Of a stretch of DNA of 45,979 bases, positions 2,535-32,821 are shown piece after piece. Made by a program: the position numbers and the translations under genes. Origin of the DNA: a virus; the IMG/VR virus record IMGVR_UViG_3300040801_002588, positions 1 to 45,979 of that record, one strand, 5' to 3'. Position 1 is the stretch's first letter. Every line of letters begins with the position of its first letter. The notes under the pieces are model-generated. The model did not search any database. It was given only the letters and a program-made list of their open reading frames with translations, and was not told the origin of the DNA.

Positions 2535-2563
2535 AAACATTCTCCGGATGTTTTGGTCAAGTG

Positions 2564-2587
2564 GATACGGGGCTGCCACCCCGTATC
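2564..2587. repeat. Inverted repeat between HNH gene and small basic gene
   Basis: A perfect 9-bp stem, GATACGGGG / CCCCGTATC, with loop CTGCCA. No U-run follows on either strand, so it is not a standard intrinsic terminator. It sits just upstream of both the HNH gene (- strand) and the 2611 gene (+ strand), and an A/T-rich stretch (GATTATAGTATAG) follows before the 2611 ribosome site. It could be an RNA-processing or regulatory hairpin; function unknown. Confidence 0.5.
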
Positions 2588-2610
2588 TGCGATTATAGTA
2601 TAGGACTGAT

Positions 2611-4409: not shown

Positions 4410-4415
4410 GCGGAT

Positions 4416-6515: not shown

Positions 6516-6526
6516 AGGATTAAATC

Positions 6527-14599: not shown

Positions 14600-14614
14600 G
14601 GTAAGGATTTGACT

Positions 14615-16684
14615 ATGGCTATCAAGCGCCCTGAATTACCCAAACCAAGCAATTTTGCCCAGTCACTGTTGGAGCGTGCCACGCTCCGCGAACGGGGCAG
14701 CATGAATCAGTTTGGCCAGGATGTCTCTGCTTTGCGCAATTTGCTGGAACAGAACTCACAGGAGCGCTTTGGTCAGCGTTTTGGTGAACAGGTGGCTGGC
14801 ACTAATTTCGAGAATGCTGATGCAGTCCAGAGGTTGCGCCAGACCGTAATGGGAGATGCCTTAGCTAAAGGATTGGATCCCACATCTTTTGTGAACATGA
14901 TTTCGGGCCAACGCACCAGTGCGCTTCAAGAGCAGGCTCGGGAAGAAGAATTGTTTTCCAAGGAGCTGGCTCAGAAAGCTTTCGCAAATCCAGCAGAGGC
15001 CAGACAGCTATTGTCCACTGCTGATCCCAGGATGCTTACTGCAGAAGGTATGCAGTTGCTTAGGGGTGCTGATGCCGAGTATCGGACTGAATTGACCCAG
15101 CAAGGCGTGCTTGATGCTACTCGTGGTATTTGGGCAGCTCCCACTTTGGAAGAAGCCAGGAAGTATCTACAGAACTTTAATCCGAATGCAGAAGGCGATG
15201 AAGGTGCCATAGCTAAATCGGCGCATGATGCTTTCACTGCACGTAGCCAGCGTGAAGCAGCTATGCGCCAAGCTCGTGCGGCAGAAAAACCCACACGTGA
15301 AGAAGAAATACGGCCTTTAGTTACTAAAGTGGAAGGCATGTATTCCCAGTTCTATGAGCCTGTGCTTCAGGCCCGCATAGCGAAGGCGGACCAAATCGTA
15401 CGGCAGACTATGCCAAATGCAACTGAAGGTGAAATTGAATTAGCTAAACGTCAGAAGCTTCATCGTTGGGAAAATAACCTTGATTCAGAAGAGCTGAATT
15501 CTGCAGAGTTGTTGTTTGATGAAGGCAACATGCGAAAGCTGCGTCAAATGTTCAGGGCGGAAGGTGGCACGGACGCTGAGTTTGATGAATTTACACGGCC
15601 TGGACGGCATGGCGTCCAACTCAGGGAAGCTCTGCAAAGTGAAGTTGACGCTGCCGAGACCCGCAGAAAGAACTATCGCCAGCTTGGTGATGCTCGAATG
15701 GAGTCAATTGATAGAGCTCCGCTTCAAGGTTTTGAATTCACGGCAAGTGGTTTGGTGCCAGTGCAGTTTGAGGATGACATTAAAAGCTCTGGCACTGTAC
15801 CAGAGATCATCAGTCGCTTTATGCAAGAGGCTGCTGATCCAGCCAGTGGTAATTACGGCTTTTCGGCTAAAGCATTTGACGACGATGCCGTTCAGGGCGT
15901 ACTGAAGGGATACAAAGATTTCAACCCAAGCATTACTAGACGAGGTTTGGAAATTGCCTGGGATGGTAAGAAATTCGATGCGGATAAACTGGCAGAATTT
16001 AGTGCCATTATTAAAAAATACCTGCCTACAGACGCTTTTTTGGATGCCACAATGGCTCAGTACCAGCAGGCAAAAGCAGGTGGCGGTTCATTACAGACTG
16101 TGAGCTTTATGCCAGCAGCCTATGACAGGATGGATGCTGATGAAAAAGCGATCTTTGATGAAGCTTTTAGTGGGCCTAACGTAACCGAAGGAAGTGACGC
16201 TCAAACCGGACAAGCACTGAATAATCTGGATAAGCTTACGGAAGCGGTTGAAGTAAAACAGACCAGCACACGTGGAATGGTAAATGACATTGCCAGTGAT
16301 ATCACACTTTTGTCCCAAGCAGATCAAGACGAATTTGCTTCTATAACCACAGAATATTCCAACCTGCTGGGTGCCAGACAAGAAGCAGAGGTTGGTTTTT
16401 GGAAAGGCGTATGGGACACAGTTGATGATGCAACGTTGATGCCGTGGGAGGATGAATTTAGTTGGGATGCGGCATTCTCAGCTGCACTTCCTTTTGGTAA
16501 AGATAACAGTGAGTTGATTGGTAGAGGCCAGTTATCTGCCAACTTACAAGCAGGAAAACGTAATCCCGAAGCAAAACAAAAAATGATTGCTGTACAAAGG
16601 CAATTTGAGTCCTTGGAATCAAGACTCGAAGCTCTCAGGAAGAAGCTACAAAAAGCACGATTGAGACGGGCCGCGACAGAATAG
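14615..16684 (+). CDS. Internal virion protein, helical, N4 gp52-like position
   Basis: 689 residues from the ATG at 14615, chosen because AAGGA lies 7 bases before it; the TTG two codons earlier has no such spacing. The protein is almost all alpha-helical, rich in Ala, Gln, Glu and Arg (for example FAQSLLERATLRERGSMNQF), with no obvious membrane segment. A short C-terminal coiled coil ends in Lys/Arg. It lies directly before two giant proteins in what looks like the set of proteins packed in the head and ejected with DNA. There is no recognisable lysozyme or other catalytic motif, so a structural or DNA-guiding role is assumed. Confidence 0.6.
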   Translation: MAIKRPELPKPSNFAQSLLERATLRERGSMNQFGQDVSALRNLLEQNSQERFGQRFGEQVAGTNFENADAVQRLRQTVMGDALAKGLDPTSFVNMISGQRTSALQEQAREEELFSKELAQKAFANPAEARQLLSTADPRMLTAEGMQLLRGADAEYRTELTQQGVLDATRGIWAAPTLEEARKYLQNFNPNAEGDEGAIAKSAHDAFTARSQREAAMRQARAAEKPTREEEIRPLVTKVEGMYSQFYEPVLQARIAKADQIVRQTMPNATEGEIELAKRQKLHRWENNLDSEELNSAELLFDEGNMRKLRQMFRAEGGTDAEFDEFTRPGRHGVQLREALQSEVDAAETRRKNYRQLGDARMESIDRAPLQGFEFTASGLVPVQFEDDIKSSGTVPEIISRFMQEAADPASGNYGFSAKAFDDDAVQGVLKGYKDFNPSITRRGLEIAWDGKKFDADKLAEFSAIIKKYLPTDAFLDATMAQYQQAKAGGGSLQTVSFMPAAYDRMDADEKAIFDEAFSGPNVTEGSDAQTGQALNNLDKLTEAVEVKQTSTRGMVNDIASDITLLSQADQDEFASITTEYSNLLGARQEAEVGFWKGVWDTVDDATLMPWEDEFSWDAAFSAALPFGKDNSELIGRGQLSANLQAGKRNPEAKQKMIAVQRQFESLESRLEALRKKLQKARLRRAATE

Positions 16685-16695
16685 GCTAAACAACA

Positions 16696-19600
16696 ATGAG
16701 TGATTTCATTGGTAGACTAAAGCGAGCTCGTACGCTTGGTGAGCAGAAAGTACAACAGCTGGATGAACGTTTAGCTGAAAAGCGCTCGCGTCTGGATCCG
16801 GAAGAAGCGGGTTGGGAAGATGTACCCGATAATCAGTTCCAGATTGTTGATGGCGATACTGCATTCAATCCAGCCAATAATGAATATTTTCGTATTGCCT
16901 TCCCCGGCATGCGTACAGCTAATACGTTTGAATCCCGACCAGAAGTTTACGAACGTGATCCAGAATTATTTCAACGTCACCGTTTAGCACTGGCCAATAT
17001 CAAAGGTTGGCATCCTGATCGGGTAAGCATTGAGCACTTAGTTGAAGAAGGTAGAAGTGCCAAGTTTCGTATTGGGCAGGATTTGGGAGAGCAGATCCGT
17101 AACGGACAGCTACAAGCTCGCAGAATGGGTCGAGCAGCTGATGGACGTACTTTGCTTGAAGTACGTAATAAACAGGCACCCAATGAGTGGCGTGATTTTT
17201 ATACGGGACAAGATGAGAATGCCGATTATTGGACTAAGTTTAATTCCAGAAAAATTCTTGAAGATTTAGGAAAGCAGGATCTACCCGACCAACATCGCAA
17301 AGGCGAACGCAGCTTTGGCGAGTTAGCTACGGATCTACCATCACAAGCGCTGACTGGCACTATGAGCCTTGGTTTAGCTGGTGCACAGTTCGGGGCAAAT
17401 GCTCTTGGCTTGAACAACATCGAAGGTGTTAATGAAGCTTTTGCTGATGCCAATGATGCAGTTGAACGTCTGAAAAAATCCATGACCAGCGATGCGTCAC
17501 AGTATCGCTCCCGTATGTTCGATAAGCAGCGTGAACGAGCTAAGCAAATGGCTCCTATGCGGGAACAGATGTATCGCCAGAATGGGTTGACCGAGCGGCA
17601 AGCACGGGTAGCCGCCGGACTGGATGAATATAAAGATGCAATGACGGCTATTGGCAAGGAACCAGGAGCTATCCTGGATCTTGCTGCAGAATCATTACCC
17701 TCTATGTTTGCTGTAGGTATTGGCGGCATTGCAGGTCGTGCAGTGGCCATGCGTGCAGCTTCCAAAGCTGTATTGAATGATCTCAAAAAACGTCCTTTCT
17801 CCCTGCCCAAACTGACGGCTCGTGCTGAAGATGTGGGCAAAGACAAATTTAGCAGGGCAAACCGAGCACGATTGGCTGAAACAAAGAAAGACATCCGGGA
17901 AGGTTTGTACGATAAAGATGGCAAGCTAGACATAGATGCAGCAAAGAAAGCTGCGCATAACGCAGCCATGGATTTCTACAAAGACACGGAAGCCGGCAAA
18001 AACATCATCAAATGGGTCAGTAGGTCTACTGGTATAGCTGGCATTGGTGTGACAGAAACTGTTGGTAACGTCGCCGATGCATATAACTCAGTCATGACCA
18101 TGCCTGTGGATCAGTTGATGCAGTCAGAACGCTTTCAGGCACTGGTTATAGATCAGGGTCTGACAGTAGACGAAGCCAGACAACAAATGGCTGATCAAGT
18201 AGCCAGTGAAATTGGCACTAATACATTCTTGCTGGCAACGGCTACTGCTGCAGCATTTGGTACTGGCGCCTTTGAAGGTAAGCTGTTCCAGTTCAAGACC
18301 AATCCATTTGCGAAGGAGGTCGTTGGAGAAGTTGCCGAAGAGGGTGTGGAACAGGCAGCCAAGACCAGTTTAGGGGCACGTCTGAAATCAGCGCTATCAC
18401 TGAAGTCTGCTAAAGAAGCGACCAAGAAAGCCACGAAGGCTACAGGTGAAGCGGTCAAGAAAACACCATCATTGGCCAAAACTGCTGCTAAGGTGCAAGC
18501 CAGTGCTGGCGTACGTGTTGCTGGTCGTTCCTTGGGCGCAGGTGGCCAAGAGTTTATTGAAGAAACAGCTCAGTCAGGTGGTGGCACATACATTACACAA
18601 GCGGCCATGGAGCCCATTACGGGTGAAGCACCCCGATTGGGTGCAGCCTGGGATGCAGCACAAGGTGGTGCAGCAGGTCTGGTGACTGGTGTCTCGATGT
18701 CAGGCATTTCTGGCACCATCAAAGAAACCATCAAGAAAGCCGAACAAGCCCGCAGGGGCACACCCGATACTGTTGGATCAGGCACTATTCGTGATATCAG
18801 TGGTGTCCCGGGCGGTAGCAGTAATAATGCCAATCTTGTAATACGTGAAGAATTTGCAGAGGATGATTATGACGCAGTAGGTGCAGCAGAGGCTGCCTAC
18901 GAAGAGCTGGGCGATACTACTGCTGAAGACGCTCCGGCACGCTACCAAAACTATGCTGTAGCACGTGCTAAAGGTGCAGTTGCTGAGAGCGCTCTTGTGA
19001 CTCAGATCACCGAAGAGCAGGACCCCAATAAGAAGAAAGAACTGGTAACTAAACTGCAGCAAGTACGTGCTGCCAATCAGCAAGCAGATTCCAATTTTCA
19101 GGAAATGGTTCAACGTGAGCTGGGCGATATTGCGCCTCGGGCACGTGACGGTAATCTGACCGAAGATGACCTGAATACCATTGAGCAAGTGGCCGGTCGT
19201 GGCGCCATTCTGAATGAATTATTCCAAAGCACCAACCTACCCGAGCCAGTACGTGCCGCAATCCAGGCGGCATCAGATATTTATAACCTGATCCGAAATG
19301 AAACCAATCCCAGCAGCCTGTACAACCAGGTGAAAAAGCAGGCTTTGGTTATTGCTGAAAAAGATGGGCTCGAAGGCGAAGAAGCAAATAGCGTTGCTGA
19401 AGCACTGACGGAGAACTTGGTTGGTACCGGTCTGAGTGTATTCAACGACAGCGACGGCAACACCGTCAGTCGTGCTGGATTGGCAAGAGCCTGGAATCAC
19501 GCACAGGAATTTTTGCGTGCAGGTATGCCGGAAGAAGCCAAGGCTTTGGTGAACGAAAGACTTGATGCGCTGGCAGCAAATCTCTCACTTGATGAAGACA

Positions 19601-20955
19601 CAATCAATGAAATCAGAGACAAGTTCAACCAGCGTGTAGACAATGACCAGCAGATCAAGGAAGCAATCAAACAAGGCCCGGTAAAACCAGATGCCACACA
19701 AGCAGCAGGGGAGCAGGGAAAGGCGGCTGCAGCAACGCAAACAGGTGAGGCTACCCCAGAAGGTGCCCAGACGCCCAGAGCCGCTGAGAGCGGCCCACAG
19801 CGGCCAGAGTTTACCAGCACCAATAAGCAGGAGTGGAATGATTACTTGGCCCAAGTGCCGGATGAAGAGCTGGCACAGCTGAACAAAGACGTACGGGCAG
19901 CGGCAGGACGTAACAATGGGCAGGATGTAAGCGTAGCGCAACAGGCTATCAAAGAGGCTATTCTGGCTCGGAACAAAGCAAGCCAAGCTACGCCACGGCC
20001 GGGCCCTGAGCCTGAGCCTGAGCCTGAGCCTGAAGCTGAAGTTGAAGCTGAAGGAGGGTTGACCCCAGAACAGGAAGAGAACGAGCCAATTCTCAGCGGA
20101 GCCGAGATGCTCATCAACGATGACCCGCAATCTGATTTGGGTCAAAGTTATGTTGAACAACTGAGTGAAATCGAAGATCAACTGACAGAGGATCAGCAGG
20201 CACGCCTACAGACATTACGCGAGAAGATATCTGCAGCTGAGCCCGAGCCGGCGCAGCCGGCCGGGCCAGCTGCTGAAGAAGTAGAAGAAGAAGAAACCGG
20301 AGATGAAACTGCAGAAATTATCGGCAGAGAAGCCAAAGCCGCAAAGCAGGAAGTTGAACAGAACCTGGTATCGGCTTCCGTGTTCTTCCTGGATCCATTG
20401 AGCTCATTGATTCAGCGTTTGGAAATGGACGGCACAGACGTGCTGGATAAATACAGCGCATCACCAGCAACTCCTGTAAACGACATTGTGGGGCAGGTAC
20501 TGGAAGATGGTGCTGGAATGAATTTTGGTACATTTGCTGAGATGCCTGAAATAGCTGGCAATGTACAGGTAATTGCACGCAGTATGTCGCGGGATAATTC
20601 AGCGATCCAGAATTCCGCCAATGTAGTGACCAAGCTGCAGCAATTGCTATCTGCATTTCAGGATGATGTAAAACTGTACTATGAACGCAATCGCAACAAG
20701 CTGGGCACATCTGCAGAAAACCGCAGTGCCAGTGATTGGATGCGGGTGACACGTGGGGCAGAAGGTTTTACTTCATTGGATTTCGCTGACCAACTGACAC
20801 AAGGCCAGATTGGTGAAATAGAAAATACAGTGAATTCAGTGACAGGTCTGGCCGATGTGGACACAACCCCTGTCGAAGGTATCCGAGATCCACAGCAAAA
20901 GGCAGCAGCTGCACTAGCAAAATTGAAGAAATTCAATGAGCTATGCAAAAAATAA
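16696..20955 (+). CDS. Giant (1419 aa) internal virion / ejection protein
   Basis: The N-terminal part is basic and helical, then QIVDGDTAFN at residues about 49-58 followed by F-R-I; this loosely recalls the D-G-D-T...R-L core of staphylococcal-nuclease folds, but the downstream acidic residue is not clearly kept. Hydrophobic Gly/Ala-rich segments lie at about 319-355 (LPSMFAVGIGGIAGRAVAMR), 511-525 and 657-673, suitable for membrane insertion. Between them are Lys/Ala-rich helices. The C-terminal third is acidic and linker-like, including eight glutamate-containing hexamer codon repeats at 20005-20052. In size and place it corresponds to the internal protein next to vRNAP in N4 (gp51). It probably travels with the polymerase into the cell. 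No clear SD before its ATG. Confidence 0.6.
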   Translation: MSDFIGRLKRARTLGEQKVQQLDERLAEKRSRLDPEEAGWEDVPDNQFQIVDGDTAFNPANNEYFRIAFPGMRTANTFESRPEVYERDPELFQRHRLALANIKGWHPDRVSIEHLVEEGRSAKFRIGQDLGEQIRNGQLQARRMGRAADGRTLLEVRNKQAPNEWRDFYTGQDENADYWTKFNSRKILEDLGKQDLPDQHRKGERSFGELATDLPSQALTGTMSLGLAGAQFGANALGLNNIEGVNEAFADANDAVERLKKSMTSDASQYRSRMFDKQRERAKQMAPMREQMYRQNGLTERQARVAAGLDEYKDAMTAIGKEPGAILDLAAESLPSMFAVGIGGIAGRAVAMRAASKAVLNDLKKRPFSLPKLTARAEDVGKDKFSRANRARLAETKKDIREGLYDKDGKLDIDAAKKAAHNAAMDFYKDTEAGKNIIKWVSRSTGIAGIGVTETVGNVADAYNSVMTMPVDQLMQSERFQALVIDQGLTVDEARQQMADQVASEIGTNTFLLATATAAAFGTGAFEGKLFQFKTNPFAKEVVGEVAEEGVEQAAKTSLGARLKSALSLKSAKEATKKATKATGEAVKKTPSLAKTAAKVQASAGVRVAGRSLGAGGQEFIEETAQSGGGTYITQAAMEPITGEAPRLGAAWDAAQGGAAGLVTGVSMSGISGTIKETIKKAEQARRGTPDTVGSGTIRDISGVPGGSSNNANLVIREEFAEDDYDAVGAAEAAYEELGDTTAEDAPARYQNYAVARAKGAVAESALVTQITEEQDPNKKKELVTKLQQVRAANQQADSNFQEMVQRELGDIAPRARDGNLTEDDLNTIEQVAGRGAILNELFQSTNLPEPVRAAIQAASDIYNLIRNETNPSSLYNQVKKQALVIAEKDGLEGEEANSVAEALTENLVGTGLSVFNDSDGNTVSRAGLARAWNHAQEFLRAGMPEEAKALVNERLDALAANLSLDEDTINEIRDKFNQRVDNDQQIKEAIKQGPVKPDATQAAGEQGKAAAATQTGEATPEGAQTPRAAESGPQRPEFTSTNKQEWNDYLAQVPDEELAQLNKDVRAAAGRNNGQDVSVAQQAIKEAILARNKASQATPRPGPEPEPEPEPEAEVEAEGGLTPEQEENEPILSGAEMLINDDPQSDLGQSYVEQLSEIEDQLTEDQQARLQTLREKISAAEPEPAQPAGPAAEEVEEEETGDETAEIIGREAKAAKQEVEQNLVSASVFFLDPLSSLIQRLEMDGTDVLDKYSASPATPVNDIVGQVLEDGAGMNFGTFAEMPEIAGNVQVIARSMSRDNSAIQNSANVVTKLQQLLSAFQDDVKLYYERNRNKLGTSAENRSASDWMRVTRGAEGFTSLDFADQLTQGQIGEIENTVNSVTGLADVDTTPVEGIRDPQQKAAAALAKLKKFNELCKK
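20005..20052 (+). repeat. Tandem hexanucleotide repeat encoding Pro/Ala-Glu linker
   Basis: Four perfect CCTGAG units followed by CCTGAA, GCTGAA, GTTGAA and GCTGAA. They encode a Pro-Glu repeat that decays into Ala-Glu and Val-Glu, an extended acidic linker inside the 1419-residue protein. Such tracts change length easily by slippage. Confidence 0.9.
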
Positions 20956-20967
20956 CAGGACTTACTT

Positions 20968-23900
20968 ATGCCCTTAGTTTGTAGCATCAAAGGCAGAACT
21001 GCCGAACAGACCCTGAAGCGAATTCGCAGTGGCGAATTACAGGCTGTTAAACATATCACTGACGCGATGCGGGAAGCTCGTGAAGGTATGTATGACGGGG
21101 CAGGTTATCCAGCTGAAAAATTATTGAAGATTTTTACCATGCCTGAGAATGCCATCAGGCAAGAGGTCTATCAGACCTTGGCTCCATACGCCTGGATGGC
21201 CCTGGATACCGAGATCGATAACAGTATCCATGAACTCATCGAAAACCGTGACACGACCTTGGATGAGATTATTGAGCGGGTAGATGCAATTGCTCGGGAT
21301 GAAAACCTGACTCTGGATACCCGACTGAGTAATATCCGCACTGCAATGTTTGGCCGGTTGGCCAAATTTACCCAGGAAACGGGTAAGCGTCCTAGTCCCA
21401 AAGCACTGAACCTGGCACAAGGCACATCGGTTGCGTACATTGAATCCGTATTTTTGAATAAAGATTCCAAGTCCAAGTTGGATGAGGCCCGCAATAAAAA
21501 ACCTGTAGTGGATCATTTGTGGGATATTTTTGAGTCTCGATCAGAAGATAAAACCAATAGCATATTTGCATTGCAGGCCAATGCCATGGGCCTGTTTGAG
21601 ACTTTGTTGGGTCAAGGTCTGCTCTGGGATGTCGAGTTGGGTGAGATTGGCGCCAGTGGTGACGCATTCAAAGCAGCTGCATATCGCTATCTGGATTACC
21701 ACAAGAAATTTGTAAATGCCCTGCGTAAAGCAATGGGTCCATATGACCCTACGAAATCCAAGACAGCGCAGCATCCTTTATACAATAAAGGACAGAATTT
21801 TGATGAGCGGCTTCGGGAAGACCCATCATTTTTTCTACGCAATCCTATTACTGGTGAAATGCCGGCCAATGTTGAAGGTGCGTTGTCTGCAGCTGTATTT
21901 TGGTACGCCTCAAATATTATTGGTCGCACGCTCTATCTGAACCCACGCGAAGTCAATCGCAGATTGGGCAGGCGCCTGGATCACCCAGTTAGTGAGGATG
22001 AAATGACCAACCCTGAAATTCAGGGTGAGTCAGAAGAAGTCGCACGTCAGATGATTGGCAACATGGCCTGGAAAGCATTAGGCATGTACCACGACCGCAG
22101 CGTGCCGGGACACCACGAAGAATTGATTAAGATGGCGCTGGGCCAATGGGGATTGGAAACCTTGGCTGAGTTGGGCGTTATTAAACCGGAAAATGTACTG
22201 GTAGATCTGGCTGAAGTAACGGGTTCTCAGATCGCCGAATCAACCAAGGTACGATTGATCCAGTTGGAGCGCGTAGAGCGGGAGGACAGCGGTACATACA
22301 ACGAAGAAACCGGGATCCTTGAGGATTTTGAATACGATCCACCACCGCTATACAGACAGATGCTGGATACCTATTGGGCGTTGCGCAACAAAGGTGATAC
22401 CAGCCCCAAGAATAATAACGAACAAGAAGTTAAAGGCCATCTGCTGGGTCGTCTTTTTGGTTGGGGTAGTGATACCTCTTTGCCTATTTTGGCTGATGGG
22501 AATAGCGAAAAACCGGTTACTTCACCTAAGTTGTCCAGCGGCAATAACAGCGTGCCGCAGGTTATGGCAGATGCTGCTACTGTACATGCGCAGCGGGAAC
22601 AAAAGTTCAACACAGTAGGTATGCATGTGATGAACTTGATTGGTGTTGTACCGTTTTTGAATCTCTACACCAAGTACGAATCCAATCGCAACAAGATCCA
22701 CAAGGACAAACGTCAAGGCGCTATTGATCGGAATACACAGTTGCGAGCTGACGTCAATTTCATGAAGCGTTGGTTTGCTGTTGCCAAAGATCAGGGTTTT
22801 TACATTCCAAACCGTTTTCTCAATAACTGGCGTAACCATGAGGACTCCAGACTCAGTCGCCAGATGAGCAAGATCCACCGTGCATTTGTACAACCGGCAG
22901 AAACAGCGTATGTGATTAAAGCCGGTCAGGCAGGCCAGACTGAAAAGGAATTCCTAGTAGCCGTTGCGGAAAAGATTGGAATTTCGCTGAGAAAAGATCA
23001 GGTACCCCGGGGGGAACGTCCAGTTAAGTTTGATCCTGAAGCTTTGGAGACCTGGGATCAGGCCTATGAGCAGGCTCAGCTATATCTGAATCAACCCATT
23101 CTGAAATCAGATGGGACAACCAGCCGTCTGATCGTTGAGGTTGCTGAAGTACTGGGACGGTTATCTGATCCCACTCGCACCCATCGTGCCACTGCACAGG
23201 AATTAAAATTACTACAGGAGCTCAACTACAACGACCACGAGATTGAAGCTGAAGGCTTCATAGCGTTGATGAATTATGGGCGTTATTTGACTGCGCCCAA
23301 GGGCACTGAAATCGAAGTGTTCCAACCGGTCCAGTTTGATGCCAAAGGCGCCGGTTTGAATTGGCAGCTATCGCAGCTGATTACACTAGATACCTATGAT
23401 GAGTCCCTGAATAAACTGGCCACTGGCGGCTACAAGATCAATGACGAACAAGTCTTTGATCTAGACACGCGGCAAATGTCTACCATGAAGTATCTGGATC
23501 AGACTACAGACGCGTATGAGCGTCTGCGTGATGCCCGTGTTACGTACACAACAAGTGTGGCGCAAGGCAAGACACCCGTGGTAGTGGGCACTACCATTGA
23601 ATTCCAAGAAACGGACCTACGCATCACAGCGTTGACCCGTAACGTGGAAATTTCCAAACAAAACTTCCTGGATATACAAAGCCATACACGTCCCTGGGAG
23701 AGCATATTCCGCACATCCAAAGCCAAGTACGAAGAAGACTTGGCAGATTTACGGGCTGCTTACGCAGTTACGCTGACTGATGCAAATGGCAAAACCTTGC
23801 ACCAGACACTGCAGGAACTGGATTTGTTACCCAGTGATGCCAGCAAATCCCGTGAGCTGGTTAAGCATGTAGCCATGATCAAGGCCTACTTTGCCGGTGA

Positions 23901-26900
23901 AATTTCATTGGAGCAACGGCATATTGAGGATTTGTTCGATACGATCCGCAGCATGCTTGCCGAACAAGGCACTATTGATGAAGCGGCTCAATTCCTAAGT
24001 ATTCTGGTGCGTGCCGTACGCTTGGCAAATGCCATTGATATCAAGATTGATCCCGAATTCCGTAACCTGCCGGGCTATGAAGTAGGTTTGACGGATGCAA
24101 CTGTGATGGAACAAAAGTTAGGTGAAGCGCTGAAATCACTTAAGCCTGGCCAGCGTGTAGGCGCAGAGATCAGCTTTAACGATACCGACATATTCACGCA
24201 TAACTTCAAATCCAGATTGATGTCTGCATTGCGTATGACCTATGGTTCTTCGTTACGTTATGCATTGCGCATTGAGAATCTGAACCAGGATGCCGTACGT
24301 AAATTCATGAGTGAAGCCGTAAACATTATGGCCATCATCATACGACCGGTACTGGATCAAAAAATTAAAGAACAAAAAATGCTGGGACTGGATGTAGGTC
24401 CAGCTGAAATTAACCAGATTGTACGCAGCATGATCAAAGGCGGAATCTGGCCCACATTGCAGACGCACCTTTCCCATAATGCAGAAACTGGATTGGATGC
24501 CATGAGTTGGGATTTTGAAGCACTTGACGATGTGGCCTTCAAAATTGCACGTGAGCCTTCTGAGCGGGTCAAGAAAAACAGCGTCAAGGACAATGTTCGT
24601 ATGCTGATGCCACAAGGGCGTGGCGGCATTGCAGCTAATGTGCGCCTAAATCAGGCACTGAGTGACGCTGTAGTTATGATCCTGGTTGCTGAAAAGGTGC
24701 CCTTGATCAGCACCCTTGACGGTGGCATCACGTCACCCAAATTGGTGGGTGAAGCAGTACGTCTGGCAAATGAATACAGTGCTTCTTCGATGTTGGAAAA
24801 CAACATCATGGAGAATCTGTTCAATGAGCTCGCCAAGACATTGGTTATTTTGCGGGACGACAATACACTATTGCCACCGGATGTACGCAAGGTGGTCAAG
24901 GCCCGTTTACATGATGCTTTGTCACGTGACTACACACCAGAACCCTCAGTAAGTTTGCTGGATACCTGGCTGGGTCGATTTGAAGGTGTAGTGACCCAGG
25001 TTAAGAAAGCCAGAGAGCAGGCATTTTTCAGTGGGATACCGGTTCAATTCGGTAACTTTGTTTATCGAGGCGGTGAGATCACACACCAAAAGAAAGGTGT
25101 GGAATCCAATGAAAAAACGCCACTGGGTTTGCTGCAAGCAGAAATGGCAGCCAATCGCGGTCAAACTGTTGTTGGCTTGAAGGCGGTTACAGATGCATTC
25201 CTTAAATCCATGGAATCGTTTGAAACTCGCTATCGTGAGTTTGATGTCAAGCGGTTGGCTTATGGATTAAGCACCAATACCGAGTCACAGATGTTGCGTG
25301 GCATTCTGAGTCGCAGCAATAACGCTGGTGGCGCCAAAGAAGTCACACTACAAGAATTGCTGGAGGTTATGACGGATGCCAGCAATAACGTAGGTCGGCC
25401 ATTAACACATTCAATCATGCAAAACCTGGCTCGCTACGCCAAGGTATTCAATGCCAATGAAATCCGTGTGCGCTGGACAGATGCCCTGCTGCGGGATCCG
25501 GATAACCCCGCTAACCTGGTTTACGCTGAGTTCGATCCTAAAGCCAATGGCGGCAAAGGTATTATTCGTATTTCAGGTCCTTACTACACGGACAACAGCA
25601 ACCCTGATATGGATCTGTGGCAAGCCGTCACACACGAGATGGCACATGGCGTATTGCAGCGTAAGTTCGAGCAGATGTTTTCTGATGAGAACCTGGCTGA
25701 GAACGAACCACAGGTACAGGCATGGCTAGGTCGACAGATGTGGGCACTCAAGCAGCTCAAAAATGTCACCAGCATGCAATTGCCAATACAACGCATTGCA
25801 GAAGCAGCGAACAGCAAAAACCTCCGTAAGTTTATGCAGAACGAGGCCAACCGGGATTCAGTCATCAAGGGTCTGTCTGAGTTTTATGCCTGGAGTCTGA
25901 CCTCCAAGGAGAAGATCCCAGAGAGTCTGCAAGAAACTCTGTCATTGCCGGATCTGAATACACAGGCCAAGCTGGGTTTGAATGCGTTGATCCAACAGGA
26001 TCGACGTAACCGACGACAGGAACAGCAAGATGCACAAGGTGCTGCCACCCTGGTCGGACTGTTATCCATGCCGGGTGTAGACGTGGTTCAGAGTGAAGAG
26101 CTGCAGCGGCGCACTGAAGACATTCGTAAGCCTGGCCAGGAAGGTAATCCGCAAAGTTCATCCACTCCTACTTATGGAGATCCACGCATAGATGGTGTAG
26201 AAGGTGCGGGTGAGACTGATCTGAACTTAAAAGAATTTATCACCAGCTTTTACAATCGCACTACGGCAGATCAAGTGCAGTATGTGTTTGATGTACTCAG
26301 TGAACGAGAGCAAGGTGAAACTAGTCCTGAACACCAACGTCAGCTGAAAAGCATTATCCAACGCTTCATCATTCCGGGTATTCGCTCCATTGGTTGGGTT
26401 GAAACTCGTCTAATGGACAAAATGCCAACCGCCCGGCATGGTGGTGCTTATGCCTATGATAATGACACATTGGGTAAAGGCACAGTTTATCTGGGTGCCG
26501 CTGGTAACCAGCTCACATCTAATGCGTACATGTCGCTGGAAGAAATCGCAGCGCATGAATATCTGCATGCCATTATCAAATTTGCACTACGTAACAACAT
26601 TCATTTCCGTACAGAACTGCAGCGTCTGTTTCAATTGGCTAAGGATAATCTGACCTGGGAAAACTTAATGCCCCCGGCGGATCAGATTGTTGGTGATCCC
26701 AAAATTGCCGAGGAAGCGGCTAAGCGCAGGTGGGACTATATCTTTGAAGGCATGGGTCCGAATCCGCTGGAAGATTTCATGGCTATCGGGTTGACCAATG
26801 AACCGCTCTCCAATGCATTGAAAACCCTGGATCAGGCAAAGTTGAAGAACAAACCACTCATAGAGGGTACGTTCTCCGAACGCTTGCGTAATTTGTTGAC

Positions 26901-29766
26901 GCGGATGTTGGAATGGTTAGCCGGCCTAAAAATGAAAACCAATCAGGGTTCAGTGTATACCGGGCTGGAGCAACTGACACTGGAGATTGTCAAATACAAC
27001 ACTCAGACAGCCCAGAAGATTCAGCGACGTCAGATGGGTAAACGTCCCCTTCTGGACCGCCTGAACACGGCTACAGGCGATCTGATCGATACAGTAACCC
27101 GCAAGCCAATCAAACGTCTGTTGGACCGTCAGCAGGGCGACAATTGGCGGAGCAATGGTTTACGTGGTGCCGTAGGCAAAGTAGCTAGCGAATACATGTC
27201 TGAACGCAGGAAGCATATCGAGCAGGCCATGGATGAGTGGTACCGAGGTATTGGTGGTGTCAAGAACAATGCTTTGTTTGAGATCATGGAAGAGTTTAAG
27301 CCGTACGATCCAGACAAGCGCAAGTGGTACCACGTGTTGCGCATGTCTGATCACGAGATTGAACAAGCCAGACGCCGTATGGCTGAAGACATTCGGCGCT
27401 TTATCATGGAGCATTTTGATAAGAAAAACTTCATGAACAAGGCTGAACGGGCAGCCATCACAACTGTGGTCATGCGGACCAACCTGCAGGTGTTGCTGGA
27501 TACCAATGCACCTAACTACAGTGAGTTAATCAAACTGCTCAGTGATCCCCAGTATTTACAAGCAGCTATCCAAGCTGAATTACGTACGCTGAACAAGGCA
27601 GTGAATGGCAACCAGGAATTGTTCAGAACATTCTATAACCAGGCCGGCAATCTGGGGTATTTCAAAATCGATGGTGTAGAGCGGCTTGAAGGTCAAATGT
27701 TTAATGCCACCAACATCGTAAACCAGGTCCAGTACCATAAGAACGAACGGTTAAAGGTACCGCATAAGGAAGACGCCATTGCAAGCGTGGAGCGGTTGTC
27801 TGCACTGCATGCTATCGATTTGATGCAGCACAATGGATCCAACGATATCCAAAATGCCTTGCGTGTGTTTAATCATGAAATGGCCAGGGATGTTGATATC
27901 AATGGCTTTACCTGGTTGGTTGATCTGCATAGTGTCTATGTCGCCATGGAAAAGAAGCGGCTACACAATGACAAAGCAGAGACCATGGTTGATGGGCATG
28001 TGTATGAGCAATATGACGAAGAGAGCAGCGTGCGGATTGAGATCGACACGCCAGCCAACAGGGAAGCCTTGGCGAAAGAAGGCTTTTTCTGGGTAGCTGA
28101 TTTCGAAGCGTCACCCAATGACCCCATCAAGGATAAGCGAGCTTGGTTCAAGAGTGCTCGTGGCATCAGTCTGCGCCAGCGTGGCGCCATATCAATTACC
28201 AGTGATGGTGATATTGGTCCGGACATGCGGGAAAACGTACGCCTGTCAGAGAAAGCCAGAAAACTGCATTTACGGGGACAGACACGCAGGCTGACCCAGC
28301 ATTTGGATACACAGACCAAGAATGCGGCCAGGGCCCAACGTCATACCATCATGGTGCAGCGGGACTACAACGGACCCAAGTTGATGGCCCCAGTGGTCAA
28401 TGAAGATGGTGAGGTTTACACCTACAAATACAATGTTCCAATGTCGATACGGGATAATGTGTTTGGTCGGGAGGATTACTTTGATCGGATCATGCCACGT
28501 CAGTTTGGCCACTTGGAAGATGTGGTTAAAAGTGAGGAGCATAACCGGAATATTGCCCGCATGTTGTTCGATGAGTATATCGCACTGAAAAACAATAAAG
28601 GCATACGCTTTGTACGCTATGGTGCGGACAGTACAGATCCGCGGATCCGAGAGACGTGGAACCTGTTGCCCAAAGCAATGAAAGAGGAAATGCGGCGTCG
28701 TTTTGGTGGGGATTATTTCTACATACGTGACGACATCACGAGTGCAGTGGTGGGATATCGTAAGCTGACCGTATCAGATGTAGCAGGCAAGCATGCCTTT
28801 GCTGTACGTACAGCTGAACGCATCGTGCAGGAGATCATGCAATGGACCAAATTGGATATCGCTATCCTGGATCCTACGGTAGCGGCAGCCAACATGGTCT
28901 CTAATATTGCTTTGCTACTGATGGCAGGCGTGCCCCCCGATTACATTATCAAGGAAGCAGCTGTAGCCATGCGAGGCGTGGCCCAGTATCGGAAGGATCT
29001 ACGGGAACTGCGTAGAAAACAACTACAGACACAAATGGACATCGCCAAAGGCGGTACTGGCAGTCAGTACTTGGGTGATTTGAAGTTACTGGAACATCGC
29101 ATTACACATAACCCAGTAAAGTCTTTGATGGATGAGGGTATTTTCACTACGATTGTCGAAGATCACGTGCCGGATGAAACATCCTTACGCAGTCGGGCTA
29201 TTGAAGCTGTTGAAGACAAAATGGGTCGAGCCATTCATCCATACGCTGCACGAGCAGTGAATGAATTCTGGATGCTACCCGGATCTACTGGCTTTCAGGT
29301 GATGATTGCAGCGACCCAGTATGCTGACTTTGTCAGCCGACATATCATCTACCAATATGAGACCCAGGTACGTGGAGCATCACATGAAGATGCTCTGGAC
29401 AAAGCTCTGGCTTACTTCATCTGGTATGACCTGCCGCAGAATATGTATCTGCAGTATGGCGGTGATATGGGAATGATCATGTTCAGTAAGTATTTCTTCA
29501 GGATTCAGCCTGTAGTTACCATGATCTTTGTGACCAATCCAGCCACAGCTACAGCTGTGATCTTGCTGCAGCCTATGCTAGCAGGGATGTTTCCGCAGCC
29601 CTTTGAGCAAGCTATGGGAGCCAACATCCAAGACTACTTAATGCTGGGTGGTTTTAATATCCAAGGGCGTTTACATATGTTCCCATTAATGGCAACAAGT
29701 GAACGTAACATATTGACACCTAACTTATTACAGGCAGTGATGTGGCCGATAGGTGGAATGCAATGA
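20968..29766 (+). CDS. Giant (2932 aa) virion RNA polymerase-like protein with two HExxH domains
   Basis: It occupies the N4 vRNAP (gp50) slot: last late gene, next to the convergent replication genes. Proposed T7/N4-type polymerase motifs: motif A at 791-797, D-A-K-G-A-G-L, with Asp and Gly spaced as in T7 D-G-S-C-S-G-I; motif B around 1081-1094, FKSRLMSALRMTYGS, with Y-G-S as in T7, though the nearest Lys is 11 rather than 8 residues before Tyr; motif C at 1250-1251 as L-D where H-D is usual. Residues 612-638 may be the T/DxxGR region. After the polymerase come two metallopeptidase-like domains: HEMAH at 1556-1560 with E1638, and HEYLH at 1863-1867 with E1935. The last ~330 residues are hydrophobic in patches, like the C-terminal part needed in N4 for packaging. 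It is expected to be ejected with DNA and to transcribe early genes from hairpin promoters. The polymerase assignment is inference from synteny plus motifs. Confidence 0.65.
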   Translation: MPLVCSIKGRTAEQTLKRIRSGELQAVKHITDAMREAREGMYDGAGYPAEKLLKIFTMPENAIRQEVYQTLAPYAWMALDTEIDNSIHELIENRDTTLDEIIERVDAIARDENLTLDTRLSNIRTAMFGRLAKFTQETGKRPSPKALNLAQGTSVAYIESVFLNKDSKSKLDEARNKKPVVDHLWDIFESRSEDKTNSIFALQANAMGLFETLLGQGLLWDVELGEIGASGDAFKAAAYRYLDYHKKFVNALRKAMGPYDPTKSKTAQHPLYNKGQNFDERLREDPSFFLRNPITGEMPANVEGALSAAVFWYASNIIGRTLYLNPREVNRRLGRRLDHPVSEDEMTNPEIQGESEEVARQMIGNMAWKALGMYHDRSVPGHHEELIKMALGQWGLETLAELGVIKPENVLVDLAEVTGSQIAESTKVRLIQLERVEREDSGTYNEETGILEDFEYDPPPLYRQMLDTYWALRNKGDTSPKNNNEQEVKGHLLGRLFGWGSDTSLPILADGNSEKPVTSPKLSSGNNSVPQVMADAATVHAQREQKFNTVGMHVMNLIGVVPFLNLYTKYESNRNKIHKDKRQGAIDRNTQLRADVNFMKRWFAVAKDQGFYIPNRFLNNWRNHEDSRLSRQMSKIHRAFVQPAETAYVIKAGQAGQTEKEFLVAVAEKIGISLRKDQVPRGERPVKFDPEALETWDQAYEQAQLYLNQPILKSDGTTSRLIVEVAEVLGRLSDPTRTHRATAQELKLLQELNYNDHEIEAEGFIALMNYGRYLTAPKGTEIEVFQPVQFDAKGAGLNWQLSQLITLDTYDESLNKLATGGYKINDEQVFDLDTRQMSTMKYLDQTTDAYERLRDARVTYTTSVAQGKTPVVVGTTIEFQETDLRITALTRNVEISKQNFLDIQSHTRPWESIFRTSKAKYEEDLADLRAAYAVTLTDANGKTLHQTLQELDLLPSDASKSRELVKHVAMIKAYFAGEISLEQRHIEDLFDTIRSMLAEQGTIDEAAQFLSILVRAVRLANAIDIKIDPEFRNLPGYEVGLTDATVMEQKLGEALKSLKPGQRVGAEISFNDTDIFTHNFKSRLMSALRMTYGSSLRYALRIENLNQDAVRKFMSEAVNIMAIIIRPVLDQKIKEQKMLGLDVGPAEINQIVRSMIKGGIWPTLQTHLSHNAETGLDAMSWDFEALDDVAFKIAREPSERVKKNSVKDNVRMLMPQGRGGIAANVRLNQALSDAVVMILVAEKVPLISTLDGGITSPKLVGEAVRLANEYSASSMLENNIMENLFNELAKTLVILRDDNTLLPPDVRKVVKARLHDALSRDYTPEPSVSLLDTWLGRFEGVVTQVKKAREQAFFSGIPVQFGNFVYRGGEITHQKKGVESNEKTPLGLLQAEMAANRGQTVVGLKAVTDAFLKSMESFETRYREFDVKRLAYGLSTNTESQMLRGILSRSNNAGGAKEVTLQELLEVMTDASNNVGRPLTHSIMQNLARYAKVFNANEIRVRWTDALLRDPDNPANLVYAEFDPKANGGKGIIRISGPYYTDNSNPDMDLWQAVTHEMAHGVLQRKFEQMFSDENLAENEPQVQAWLGRQMWALKQLKNVTSMQLPIQRIAEAANSKNLRKFMQNEANRDSVIKGLSEFYAWSLTSKEKIPESLQETLSLPDLNTQAKLGLNALIQQDRRNRRQEQQDAQGAATLVGLLSMPGVDVVQSEELQRRTEDIRKPGQEGNPQSSSTPTYGDPRIDGVEGAGETDLNLKEFITSFYNRTTADQVQYVFDVLSEREQGETSPEHQRQLKSIIQRFIIPGIRSIGWVETRLMDKMPTARHGGAYAYDNDTLGKGTVYLGAAGNQLTSNAYMSLEEIAAHEYLHAIIKFALRNNIHFRTELQRLFQLAKDNLTWENLMPPADQIVGDPKIAEEAAKRRWDYIFEGMGPNPLEDFMAIGLTNEPLSNALKTLDQAKLKNKPLIEGTFSERLRNLLTRMLEWLAGLKMKTNQGSVYTGLEQLTLEIVKYNTQTAQKIQRRQMGKRPLLDRLNTATGDLIDTVTRKPIKRLLDRQQGDNWRSNGLRGAVGKVASEYMSERRKHIEQAMDEWYRGIGGVKNNALFEIMEEFKPYDPDKRKWYHVLRMSDHEIEQARRRMAEDIRRFIMEHFDKKNFMNKAERAAITTVVMRTNLQVLLDTNAPNYSELIKLLSDPQYLQAAIQAELRTLNKAVNGNQELFRTFYNQAGNLGYFKIDGVERLEGQMFNATNIVNQVQYHKNERLKVPHKEDAIASVERLSALHAIDLMQHNGSNDIQNALRVFNHEMARDVDINGFTWLVDLHSVYVAMEKKRLHNDKAETMVDGHVYEQYDEESSVRIEIDTPANREALAKEGFFWVADFEASPNDPIKDKRAWFKSARGISLRQRGAISITSDGDIGPDMRENVRLSEKARKLHLRGQTRRLTQHLDTQTKNAARAQRHTIMVQRDYNGPKLMAPVVNEDGEVYTYKYNVPMSIRDNVFGREDYFDRIMPRQFGHLEDVVKSEEHNRNIARMLFDEYIALKNNKGIRFVRYGADSTDPRIRETWNLLPKAMKEEMRRRFGGDYFYIRDDITSAVVGYRKLTVSDVAGKHAFAVRTAERIVQEIMQWTKLDIAILDPTVAAANMVSNIALLLMAGVPPDYIIKEAAVAMRGVAQYRKDLRELRRKQLQTQMDIAKGGTGSQYLGDLKLLEHRITHNPVKSLMDEGIFTTIVEDHVPDETSLRSRAIEAVEDKMGRAIHPYAARAVNEFWMLPGSTGFQVMIAATQYADFVSRHIIYQYETQVRGASHEDALDKALAYFIWYDLPQNMYLQYGGDMGMIMFSKYFFRIQPVVTMIFVTNPATATAVILLQPMLAGMFPQPFEQAMGANIQDYLMLGGFNIQGRLHMFPLMATSERNILTPNLLQAVMWPIGGMQ

Positions 29767-29943: not shown

Positions 29944-31692
29944 TCAGTTAACGTCTGGCTTCGGTAATCCCGTAGCACAGTCGTCATCACCATTGGTGAC
30001 ACGCAGTTCACAGGTAGCCGAGTTACTGGTTACCGTGCACGTCTGCGGGCCACCGGGGTCACCTACACAATCCGCACCAGCGGTATTGACCGGAGTGGTC
30101 ACTACGACGGTTACCTGATCCATGAACGGGCAGGCATCTCCACTCGGGATGGACTGCGGATAGTAGAAGCCAGTGTAGCTGATGCACTGTCCAGCCGGGA
30201 TGGTGGTGGCATCTGGATTCAGCGTGACTGAACCATCCGCTACTGCATCCGTGAGGCTGGTGAGTGTAAGATCAACTTCACCATCGTTACAGACTTGACC
30301 ATCTACATTGACCCGGACTGCAAGCATGCTACCCATGTCTTCCACACCAACCTCACATTGCTTGTTGGCGTTCAGAGACGCATTGAACGTGCGAGCAGGG
30401 CACGTATCAGTCGCCGTAGCCGGATCAACCAAAGCACCGCCAAGACCTACAGCGGTAACAGTGACCGTATCCGTCGGAGCATTGATCGCACTCGCTTCCG
30501 AGAAGTAGAACACCAACGCTTCACCCGCATCCAGCGCGTACGTTGACGGGTCTGCGACGAGTGTTCCATTGGCCGTTGCGTCGGCAAGACTCGTTGCTGA
30601 TGAGCAGTCATTAGCCGCGTCAAACCCGGCTGGCGTTTCGTACCACGTAAGGTCCGCCGGAACATAATTACCCATACCTCCGATGTTGTTCTGGAAGTCG
30701 CTGAGATACAGCGAACCAGAGCCGTCATTGTAATAGCAACCACGAACATCGTAGGTAATGTTCAGCGGCGTATCGTCCGTCAGGTCATCATTGGTGCAGA
30801 CCTTGGAAGCCGCCACTGAGCAGACATCAAAGCCACCCAGCGCAAAGTCCTTGGCTGTGGATGTAAAGCTGGTCGAAGCACCTGTCGCTACCATGTAGCT
30901 GGAGAAGCACAGGTTGGCTCCGAAGAATGAGAACACATTGATACCACCTTCAAAGAACGTGGTCGGCGGGAACACCATGTCCGTGCCAGACTTCGGCGTG
31001 TACGGCCACGGGCTATCGGCGTCAATGAGGTTGGTGATGGCACATGCCCGACCACCGGAGCCGTCACAAGTAGACGCTTCCAGTGGTTGCAGAATGATGA
31101 TGTTGTCTGCTGCGCAGGACAACGCCACGTCGGGTGTCCGGTCATCTTTATCGCAGTCAGGCCACCAAGCGTACACAGCGATCTCTGCTACGCGACCGCC
31201 GTTACTGAACTTGGACGCTACGTACAGATCGCCTTCCACGTGGTTGCCAAAGAACGTGCCGTCAGGATTTAATCCAACATCATCCTGCAGTAACCAAAAC
31301 GCCAGTTCCGCATCACCATTGTCTGCGAATAGGTCGGCACCAAACATGACGACCTGTTCGCCGCTGACGATGTAATTGGCAGCATACGCATTGGTGATAT
31401 TGGTTTTGTCGGGCGGAGGCGGAGAACCTTTCCACTTGTAGTTGGGAAAGTCCTCGGGAACCTTTGATCCGCCACCGGTGAAGATGGTATCCGGTGAACT
31501 GAAATCCTCGATGATGCCGGAAAAGGTAGTCTGGGCGCCGCCGCCCCCATACAGCGTATCCCAGTCGTCACCAGTTACAGCGGTGTCTTCAGCGTCACCG
31601 TCAAGTTCGAAAATACCCAGATCATCTACTGCTAAAAGCGGGGTACAGAATACCGCCGCTCCTAACAGCACGGCTGTTAAGAATCGCTTCAT
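29944..31692 (-). CDS. Exported cysteine-rich protein (moron-like)
   Basis: 582 residues from the ATG at 31692, with AGGAG upstream. The first 21 residues (MKRFLTAVLLGAAVFCTPLLA) form a Sec signal peptide, cleaved after A-x-A-like L-L-A; no lipobox is formed. The region after it carries L-D-G-D, G-D-D-W-D, TIFTGGGSK, P-D-K and MFGADLFADNGDAELAFW, which I recognise from secreted proteins of environmental bacteria (LDGN...GDDWD type), not from phage structural proteins. The C-terminal half contains paired Cys and at least two similar beta-rich repeats. It is bracketed by intrinsic terminators on both sides, so it is an independent transcription unit. A likely role is alteration of the infected cell's surface or matrix; this is inference. 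Confidence 0.75.
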   Translation of the reverse strand: MKRFLTAVLLGAAVFCTPLLAVDDLGIFELDGDAEDTAVTGDDWDTLYGGGGAQTTFSGIIEDFSSPDTIFTGGGSKVPEDFPNYKWKGSPPPPDKTNITNAYAANYIVSGEQVVMFGADLFADNGDAELAFWLLQDDVGLNPDGTFFGNHVEGDLYVASKFSNGGRVAEIAVYAWWPDCDKDDRTPDVALSCAADNIIILQPLEASTCDGSGGRACAITNLIDADSPWPYTPKSGTDMVFPPTTFFEGGINVFSFFGANLCFSSYMVATGASTSFTSTAKDFALGGFDVCSVAASKVCTNDDLTDDTPLNITYDVRGCYYNDGSGSLYLSDFQNNIGGMGNYVPADLTWYETPAGFDAANDCSSATSLADATANGTLVADPSTYALDAGEALVFYFSEASAINAPTDTVTVTAVGLGGALVDPATATDTCPARTFNASLNANKQCEVGVEDMGSMLAVRVNVDGQVCNDGEVDLTLTSLTDAVADGSVTLNPDATTIPAGQCISYTGFYYPQSIPSGDACPFMDQVTVVVTTPVNTAGADCVGDPGGPQTCTVTSNSATCELRVTNGDDDCATGLPKPDVN

Positions 31693-31721
31693 TGTCTCTC
31701 TCCTGCGCTGCTTGTGAACAT

Positions 31722-31737
31722 CCCGCAGGTTTGCGGG
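31722..31737 (-). promoter_or_regulatory. Leader hairpin upstream of exported-protein gene
   Basis: A perfect 6-bp stem, CCCGCA / TGCGGG, with a 4-base loop, 30-45 bases before the start codon, inside the short gap between the upstream terminator and the gene. A promoter for this gene must lie in the same ~70 bases; a weak -10-like TATGCT is visible near 31748. Whether the hairpin is part of a promoter or of the mRNA leader is open. Confidence 0.35.
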
Positions 31738-31760
31738 GTCATTCTTAGCATAGCACGCGG

Positions 31761-31809
31761 AGAAAAAAAGAAGCCCCCAGTGAAAGGAGAATGCATACTC
31801 ACCGGAGGC
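31761..31809 (-). terminator. Intrinsic terminator between 297-aa gene and exported-protein gene
   Basis: On the - strand GCCTCCGGTGA pairs with TCACTGGGGGC (11 pairs, two of them G-U) around a 15-base loop and is followed by TTCTTTTTTT. It should stop transcription from the long - strand operon before the exported-protein gene, implying separate expression of that gene. Confidence 0.8.
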
Positions 31810-31927
31810 TAAGGTGCGGCCAATGAAGAGAAACCGCACTAGGGGTTGGTGGGGCAACTAACAGGAACTTGAGTATCTGTGCTAACAGTTACGGGTAAGT
31901 TTATGGTCCTGCTCGCTGCCCCGTCGA

Positions 31928-32821
31928 TCAGAACTCAGCGCCTGCGACGAATGCAGGAATGTCCTTGGTGGCCGTGGGTTCATCGCCCCACTGACCCGGA
32001 AGGCGCTTCTCGTAGCCTTTCACAGGCTGCGCCGATCCAACGTCGATCTGGTGCGCCAGGTTCAATGCCACGCTGAAGGCGCGGGATTTGTACTGCGCCG
32101 TTTCGAAGTACGCATTCATGGCGTAGGCAATCCACTGCGGGTGGTTGGTGATCGTGTGGACGTAGGTACGCGGAATGGATACGCCGTTGTAGACCACTAC
32201 GCCACCGTGTAGCTGACCGGCCATGACCGACACACCGACGAAGTGGTACTTGACGAACATGGCTTTCCACACTTCCTGCTCGGTCTGGTTGTACGGCCAG
32301 AACGGCCCCATGACGTAGGGCGGCTGCTCACTGCCGTCCATGTTGTGCATGTTCATGGTGGGCAGCATGACCCACTGGTCCAGCATCGCGTGACCAGCCA
32401 TCGCAATGATCCGCTTGCTGACACCGTAGTGTTCAGCCACTGCATCAGGCTGCTCGATCCACAGGCGGGCGCTCTCCTGCCGCTTCTGCAGCAGGTGGCA
32501 ACCGTAGTAGCGTTTCTTGCTAACGTTAAGACCCTGATGTACTGGGCCGCTGAAGTATTTGTTGAGAGTGGTCTGACTGGTCGGCAGTTCGACCGGCATC
32601 AGATCCAGTTGCTCGTAGCCTTCAGCGTTCTGCACCTCGACCGGCGAGAAGTCATCCGGCAGGGGCGGCGGTGGCGTGCGCTGGCCGGTGGCCGTATGGG
32701 CCTGGTTGTTGACGATGAACTCCAGTGCCGTGACCTGCTTCTGCCACTCGGGGTTATCGGGGTACTTCGCCGCCATGCGACGGGCGTGTTCTAGCATTGC
32801 TACGGTTTGGTTCGAGGCCAT
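31928..32821 (-). CDS. Hypothetical 297-aa protein
   Basis: Clear AGGAGAT ribosome site before ATG. The N-terminal ~40 residues are helical, followed by a Pro-rich stretch (QRTPPPPLPDD). The C-terminal 200 residues are rich in His, Met, Tyr and Trp (for example MLPTMNMHNMDG and YHFVGVSVMAGQLHGG) with no signal peptide or membrane helix. I do not recognise a family. It is the last gene of the long - strand operon before the terminator at 31761-31809. The Pro-rich hinge suggests two parts; no catalytic motif could be assigned. Confidence 0.65.
   Translation of the reverse strand: MASNQTVAMLEHARRMAAKYPDNPEWQKQVTALEFIVNNQAHTATGQRTPPPPLPDDFSPVEVQNAEGYEQLDLMPVELPTSQTTLNKYFSGPVHQGLNVSKKRYYGCHLLQKRQESARLWIEQPDAVAEHYGVSKRIIAMAGHAMLDQWVMLPTMNMHNMDGSEQPPYVMGPFWPYNQTEQEVWKAMFVKYHFVGVSVMAGQLHGGVVVYNGVSIPRTYVHTITNHPQWIAYAMNAYFETAQYKSRAFSVALNLAHQIDVGSAQPVKGYEKRLPGQWGDEPTATKDIPAFVAGAEF

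Follow-up and report, generated by a model that had tools for sequence, protein, structure and literature searches.

A probable two-gene virion RNA polymerase in an uncultivated N4-like podovirus

Locus and homology of the two genes

The DNA analyzed here (the window) is the whole of viral record IMGVR_UViG_3300040801_002588, 45,979 bases long, which is classed as linear and shows the N4-like (Schitoviridae) organization. Its late operon ends with two adjacent genes, P0002 and P0001, whose products we identify, with a probability of about 0.88, as the virion RNA polymerase (vRNAP) of an uncultivated N4-like podovirus. The two genes and the main regions of their products are located as follows:

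16696..20955, + strand: P0002, the vRNAP N-terminal domain (NTD) as a separate protein of 1419 aa, with an acidic low-complexity C-terminal part
20953..20970, + strand: gene junction, with the TAA stop of P0002, an AGGA Shine-Dalgarno-like core and, 12 nt on and in the same frame, the ATG of P0001
20968..29766, + strand: P0001, the vRNAP polymerase and C-terminal domains, 2932 aa (PHROG and hhalign matches)
21670..25167, + strand: single-subunit RNA polymerase domain, residues 235 to ~1400, counterpart of the N4 mini-vRNAP from ~residue 83 on
26206..29763, + strand: conserved C-terminal region, residues 1747-2932 (C2 of N4), matched by tblastn to 468 phage records

An initial annotation, made from the sequence alone, had predicted a divergent N4-type vRNAP from synteny and proposed hidden Markov model (HMM) and structure comparisons with the N4 enzyme; the prediction was borne out by PHROG, hhalign, HMM and predicted-fold results. 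In the PHROG profile search P0001 matched phrog_2206 "virion RNA polymerase" with an E value of 7.6e-189, and the HMM-HMM comparison (hhalign) with 16 Schitoviridae gp50 proteins aligned residues 236-2883 with 1016-3368 over 2267 columns (E 9e-100), while residues 401-1530 alone still matched the gp50 set at E 7.5e-12. A polymerase-only HMM was built from the N4 1010-2101 region of 69 vRNAPs, a set that included neither the window nor its nearest relative, the unclassified metagenomic virus IMGVR_UViG_3300013101_000033 (L018/G001, hereafter L018). Residues 235-1325 of P0001 scored 146-153 bits with this model (500 shuffled copies reached at most 4.1 bits). The homologous polymerase domain (N4 998-2103) is present and starts at residue 235 (nt ~21670), before the range given in the initial annotation. 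The 468 N4-like phage records found by tblastn with P0001 were all matched via its C-terminal half. Searches of whole P0001 with phmmer against PDB sequences gave zero matches, and single-sequence Pfam and NCBIfam scans gave none at curated cut-offs, because the protein is too divergent.

The polymerase domain (P0001 residues 232-1400) was modeled with AlphaFold2 using an alignment with 39 relatives from viral contigs, resulting in a predicted TM-score (pTM) of 0.74 and a mean predicted local distance difference test score (pLDDT) of 72. The ten best Foldseek matches in the PDB were all N4 mini-vRNAP or gp50 (E 3.5e-23 to 9e-20), with mitochondrial and T7 RNA polymerases next in rank; the crystal structures of the N4 mini-vRNAP are thus the closest to the model. 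The right-hand fold with motifs A, B and C places P0001 in the T7-type single-subunit RNA polymerase superfamily. As this fold is common to T7 and mitochondrial enzymes, P0001 could in principle be a T7-type transcribing polymerase (RNAPII-like) unrelated to virion delivery, but we give this almost no credence: VIA-align placed the N4 mini-vRNAP far above T7 (Z 21.9-25.8, the best over 887-891 residues, vs. 17.5), the vRNAP-specific C-terminal region matching the 468 phage records is present, and P0001 closes the late virion operon and converges with the replication genes.

For P0002, the profile of phrog_2206 was matched over positions 55-380 (E 9.9e-15), hhalign paired its residues 457-564 with N4-family residues 272-380 (E 8.6e-9), and residues 9-741 are colinear with the N-terminus of the L018 vRNAP, which is encoded by a single open reading frame (ORF) of 4233 aa (E 1.2e-28 and 5.6e-26); a relative search with P0002 alone found none. 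Only ~30% of P0002 aligns with the NTD and its C-terminal half matches nothing, which would suit another ejection protein (gp51-like) next to a vRNAP that simply lacks the NTD. This is very unlikely given the PHROG and hhalign matches and the colinearity with L018, and also because the gp52 and gp51 positions are already taken by the ORFs at 14036-14599 and 14609-16684.

Active site and C-terminal domain

The ORF and the residues quoted in the initial annotation (D791-AKGA-G796-L, Y1092-G-S and L-D1251) are all present. The active-site elements of P0001 are:

22831..22881, + strand: R622 ... K635-xx-R638, counterparts of N4 mini-vRNAP R424, K437 and R440
23332..23358, + strand: motif A, Q789-F-D791-A-K-G-A-G796-L, with the catalytic Asp D791 (hhalign, MAFFT, HMM)
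23614..23781, + strand: extra residues between motifs A and B (~883-938), of low model confidence (pLDDT <50 at model residues 652-707)
23851..23889, + strand: motif B / O helix, R962-ELV-K966-HVAMIKA-Y974 (every alignment method; predicted helix 727-741 of the model)
24241..24249, + strand: Y1092-G-S, initially taken as motif B; not motif B
24712..24726, + strand: motif C, T-L-D1251-G-G, with the second catalytic Asp (D invariant in 71/71; predicted beta hairpin 1016-1018/1021-1024 of the model)

Eight residues of the N4 mini-vRNAP (R424, K437, R440, D559, G564, R666, K670 and D951) do not vary in any of the 71 aligned vRNAPs, and their P0001 counterparts are R622, K635, R638, D791, G796, R962, K966 and D1251. 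Motifs A, B and C are present together with the catalytic D791, R962, K966, Y974 and D1251. In the model, D791 lies on a strand, R962 and K966 on a helix, and D1251 between two short strands, a setting consistent with palm motifs A and C for the two aspartates and with the O helix of the single-subunit polymerase family for R962/K966.

The position of motif A at D791...G796-L in the T7/N4 register, as initially proposed, was confirmed by hhalign, a MAFFT alignment of 33 proteins and an HMM built without the window, with D791 corresponding to N4 D1556 (mini-vRNAP D559) and G796 to N4 G1561. Motif B had been placed at Y1092-G-S with a Lys offset by three and a distance to motif A of ~290 residues, far longer than in T7 or N4. 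We rejected this placement, as motif B requires R at Y-12 and K at Y-8 but F and L stand there, and hhalign pairs the Y1092 region with another conserved segment (N4 ~1786-1806). True motif B is R962/K966/Y974, where the canonical R(x3)K(x7)Y spacing is exact (a result common to hhalign, several MAFFT alignments and the HMM); R962 and K966 are invariant in both the 40- and the 71-sequence alignment, Y974 corresponds to N4 Y678, a position with Y or F across the family, and F975 replaces the motif B Gly. The apparent offset Lys and the ~290-residue gap thus arose because Y1092-G-S was mistaken for motif B. The actual distance from the motif A Asp to the motif B Lys is 175 residues vs. 111 in N4, an excess of ~64 and not ~180; it is the longest among 33 aligned proteins (range 85-175), with 168, 167 and 161 residues in the relatives L018, L084 and L088. 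From the motif B Lys to the motif C Asp there are 285 residues vs. 281 in N4.

As for motif C, its placement at L-D1251 (flanked by the conserved D1233 upstream and N1268 downstream) holds, while the reading of L-D as an anomaly relative to H-D does not: the motif reads F-D in N4 and its closest relatives and Y-D in several relatives, and H-D is thus no requirement. The claimed active-site anomaly is mostly a misread motif, and the true departures from N4 are Q789, F975, L1250 and the ~64 extra residues between motifs A and B.

These departures could nevertheless mark a catalytically dead relic kept as an ejection or structural protein, as Q789 stands in place of the Glu (N4 E557) reported to contact the phosphates of the initiating (+1) nucleoside triphosphate (NTP) (PMC4496689), motif B and motif C carry F975 and L1250, and the domain is strongly divergent. 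All eight residues invariant in 71 vRNAPs are kept, however, including both metal-binding aspartates and the motif B Arg and Lys, and their retention despite <20% identity around them indicates selection on catalysis; moreover, the E-to-Q change is common to L018 and is thus old and tolerated. A dead relic is accordingly improbable, and the suggestion of an altered active site or lost activity was not upheld: P0001 is a genuine vRNAP of ordinary function from a deep, uncultivated branch, and from its residues the polymerase is probably active.

P0001 does not match the ExDGxxxG motif used for screening in a published survey (PMC10654107), as its QFDAKGAG keeps the D and the last G without the E and the first G. 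L018, L019, L084 and L088 likewise fail this screen, which is a survey filter and not a functional definition. R119, D901 and R904, which contact the promoter in N4, lie in gaps of the alignment and lack conservation in the vRNAP family; the early region lies outside the 46-kb fragment.

Downstream of the polymerase domain, the C-terminal domain (CTD) of P0001 comprises C1, with a zincin-like HExxH, and C2, and retains two HExxH metallopeptidase sites:

25633..25647, + strand: HEMAH 1556-1560, first zincin-like site, in the same alignment column as the N4 C1 HELVH at 2228
26554..26568, + strand: HEYLH 1863-1867, second zincin-like site, at the start of C2, homologous to the first and degenerate in N4

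The homology of the two sites was detected by hhalign (E 1.5e-13). Across the 71 vRNAPs, HExxH occurs at the first site in 56, at the second in 18 and at both in four (the window, L018, Vibrio phage vB_VhaP_PG11 and L026). An AlphaFold2 model of the tandem zincin region reached a pTM of 0.47, with the second copy largely at pLDDT <50, and Foldseek gave no match for this low-confidence model. The HExxH in N4 C1 was already known (PMC5512222, PMC12633501) and N4-like RNA polymerases carry one or more zincin-like domains (PMC5512222); the second site refines an observation already known from PMC5512222.

The divided gene and its relatives

The vRNAP function of the window is encoded by two adjacent genes, with the NTD apart from the polymerase and CTD, where relatives have one ORF: instead of one chain of ~3000-3800 aa carrying all three, ORFs of 1419 and 2932 aa were found. 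The split is located between NTD and polymerase in a region of poor conservation; in N4, residues 907-1006 between these domains form a disordered linker (PMC12633501).

An unreal split, caused by a recent nonsense mutation or by an error in assembly or sequencing, with one fused protein of ~4355 aa being made, is the most serious alternative, though unlikely. The two ORFs lie in one frame, only a TAA and four codons apart, in an A-rich stretch; vRNAP is one ORF in the nearest relative and in nearly all others, and the vRNAP gene of Shigella phage pSb-1 is broken by frameshifts in its deposited sequence. Against an artefact speaks the ATG of P0001, which is preceded by a good AGGA core at the spacing of neighboring genes (the gap between the late genes 14609-16684 and 16696-20955 is 11-12 nt); the chance of such a core plus an in-frame ATG within 10 codons in these genes is ~0.9%. 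The break also lies in the poorly conserved stretch corresponding to the N4 linker, and the vRNAP of another metagenomic relative, L086, is divided as well, at the polymerase/C2 boundary. Stop-codon readthrough joining the two ORFs is not favored, given the Shine-Dalgarno core and ATG directly after the stop.

In L086, an NTD-polymerase ORF (510-7478, 2322 aa) is followed by a C2 ORF (7475-11488, 1337 aa) with an ATGA overlap, and HExxH was found in neither of them. A survey listed two genomes with separated vRNAP ORFs, for which gene calling or read-through was suspected (PMC10654107). The three annotated vRNAP ORFs of pSb-1 (L105, 537-11325) were considered as a precedent for a domain-wise split and rejected, as N4 homology continues in other frames across the breaks: they are one N4-like gene broken by frameshifts. 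The single-stranded DNA-binding protein (SSB) of pSb-1 is also annotated as two ORFs, which suggests sequencing errors.

A scan of viral contigs with the single P0001 protein yielded no relative, and the alignment of all vRNAPs was too variable as a search query, while a C-terminal alignment query worked. With a closer query of two sequences, the only relative retrieved from viral contigs was L018, which shares 33% identity with the window over the C-terminal 1184 residues (1221 columns). The same query also gave a weak C-terminal relative, L103 (JAGLCW010000240.1, 1362-3344), on a 3.6-kb contig of a Caldisericia metagenome-assembled genome, likely phage DNA in a Caldisericia bin. In the tree of the C2 region the window and L018 are sisters (support 1.0) on long branches, within a group that is metagenomic only, apart from the more distant PT15-A5; support of deeper nodes is mixed.

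Several observations weigh against the identification of P0001 and P0002 as a two-gene vRNAP. A tblastn search with the polymerase half alone retrieved nothing significant from known phages, and the identity of the domain to other members is low (14-18%). The AlphaFold2 model supports vRNAP homology but is not independent of it, since family members are in its alignment, and its mean pLDDT is only 72. Motif A appears the least rigid of the three motif placements, because two other MAFFT runs slide its loop by two residues. Q789 replaces a residue that is Glu in 68 of the 71 vRNAPs, with Gln only in the window and L018. Finally, the split is known from one metagenomic contig, and a single substitution could remove the P0002 stop and join the two ORFs, which share a frame.

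Mechanism, genomic context and comparison with known systems

By analogy with N4, and going by homology and synteny, the capsid would contain a few packaged vRNAP copies, which would enter the host through the tail along with the first DNA and transcribe the early genes, using single-stranded hairpin promoters (PMC12633501, PMC4496689). Catalysis would be carried out by the T7-type right-hand domain with two metal-binding aspartates, D791 and D1251, a role suggested by residue conservation. The incoming NTP would be bound by the O-helix residues R962/K966/Y974 and the initiating NTP held by K635/R638, as N4 K437/R440 hold the initiating nucleotide (PMC4496689). The NTD of N4 is lipid-binding, joins the ejection channel and is loosely connected to the polymerase (PMC12633501). 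P0002 may be ejected as a protein of its own and associate non-covalently with the polymerase, or not at all; in the former case the two chains would meet again without a covalent link. We somewhat favor a natural two-chain vRNAP in which the covalent link is dispensable for delivery and early transcription, in a lineage that starts RNA with Gln replacing the first-nucleotide-contacting Glu.

The split gene and the Q789 change are what makes the vRNAP of the window a variant worth noting. It is still puzzling in N4-like phages how a 3500-residue enzyme gets through a ~35 Å channel and functions afterwards, and a 2025 cryo-electron microscopy preprint proposed the vRNAP domains as loosely linked "beads on a string" (PMC12633501). 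The NTD/polymerase gene division in the window, together with the polymerase/C2 division in L086, lends evolutionary support to independent beads, and these natural divisions provide constructs that could be used directly to ask which of the links are needed. The sequence of P0001 also sets strictly conserved active-site residues apart from changeable ones, and surveys filtered on ExDGxxxG miss deep vRNAP branches.

The window is probably a fragment of a larger genome, since the record is classed as linear. On the + strand the late genes run in the order portal, gp58-, gp57-, major capsid protein (MCP)-like, gp55-, gp54-, gp53-like, two unassigned genes at the gp52/gp51 positions, P0002 and P0001; the - strand genes convergent with this operon encode SSB, Sak4, primase, exonuclease and a family A DNA polymerase. 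The following neighboring genes were further recorded:

4416-6515, + strand: portal gene
8122-9951: MCP gene, 609 aa, ~200 longer than the 401 aa of N4; its match to the N4-type capsid profile lies mainly at 319-607, which points to a large N-terminal or internal insertion
14609-16684: ORF of 691 aa at the gp51 position, starting with TTG and without a match to any family; by position only a candidate periplasmic-tunnel ejection protein
29944-31857 and 31928-32821, - strand: ORFs of 637 and 297 aa that converge directly on the vRNAP gene, with no PHROG or Pfam match

Compared with known systems, the closest found is L018, which shares with the window the Q in motif A, the long A-B spacing and both HExxH sites, but carries NTD, polymerase and CTD in one 4233-aa ORF. 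N4 has the same gene order, with gp50 (vRNAP) last, and gp50 (mini-vRNAP PDB 2PO4/3C3L; full length 9PNQ/9PNR/9PNT) is like P0001 in polymerase fold, register, catalytic residues, genome place and the C1/C2 C-terminal domains with HExxH. It differs in being one 3500-aa chain vs. two proteins (1419 + 2932 aa), and P0001 has Q789 for E557, YF for YG in motif B, LD for FD in motif C and an intact second HExxH. The vRNAPs of the Vibrio phages vB_VhaP_PG11 and JA-1 (Schitoviridae) are among the best matches from cultured phages, with ~25% identity to P0001 in the C-terminal part only, and PG11 has both HExxH sites; unlike that of the window, each is encoded by one ORF (3449 and 3022 aa) and has the standard ExDG in motif A. 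T7 RNA polymerase shares the domain fold (Z 17.5), motif A D-x4-G-[IL] and motif B R-x3-K-x7-Y with P0001, but it has no NTD or CTD, is not packaged and carries H-D in motif C.

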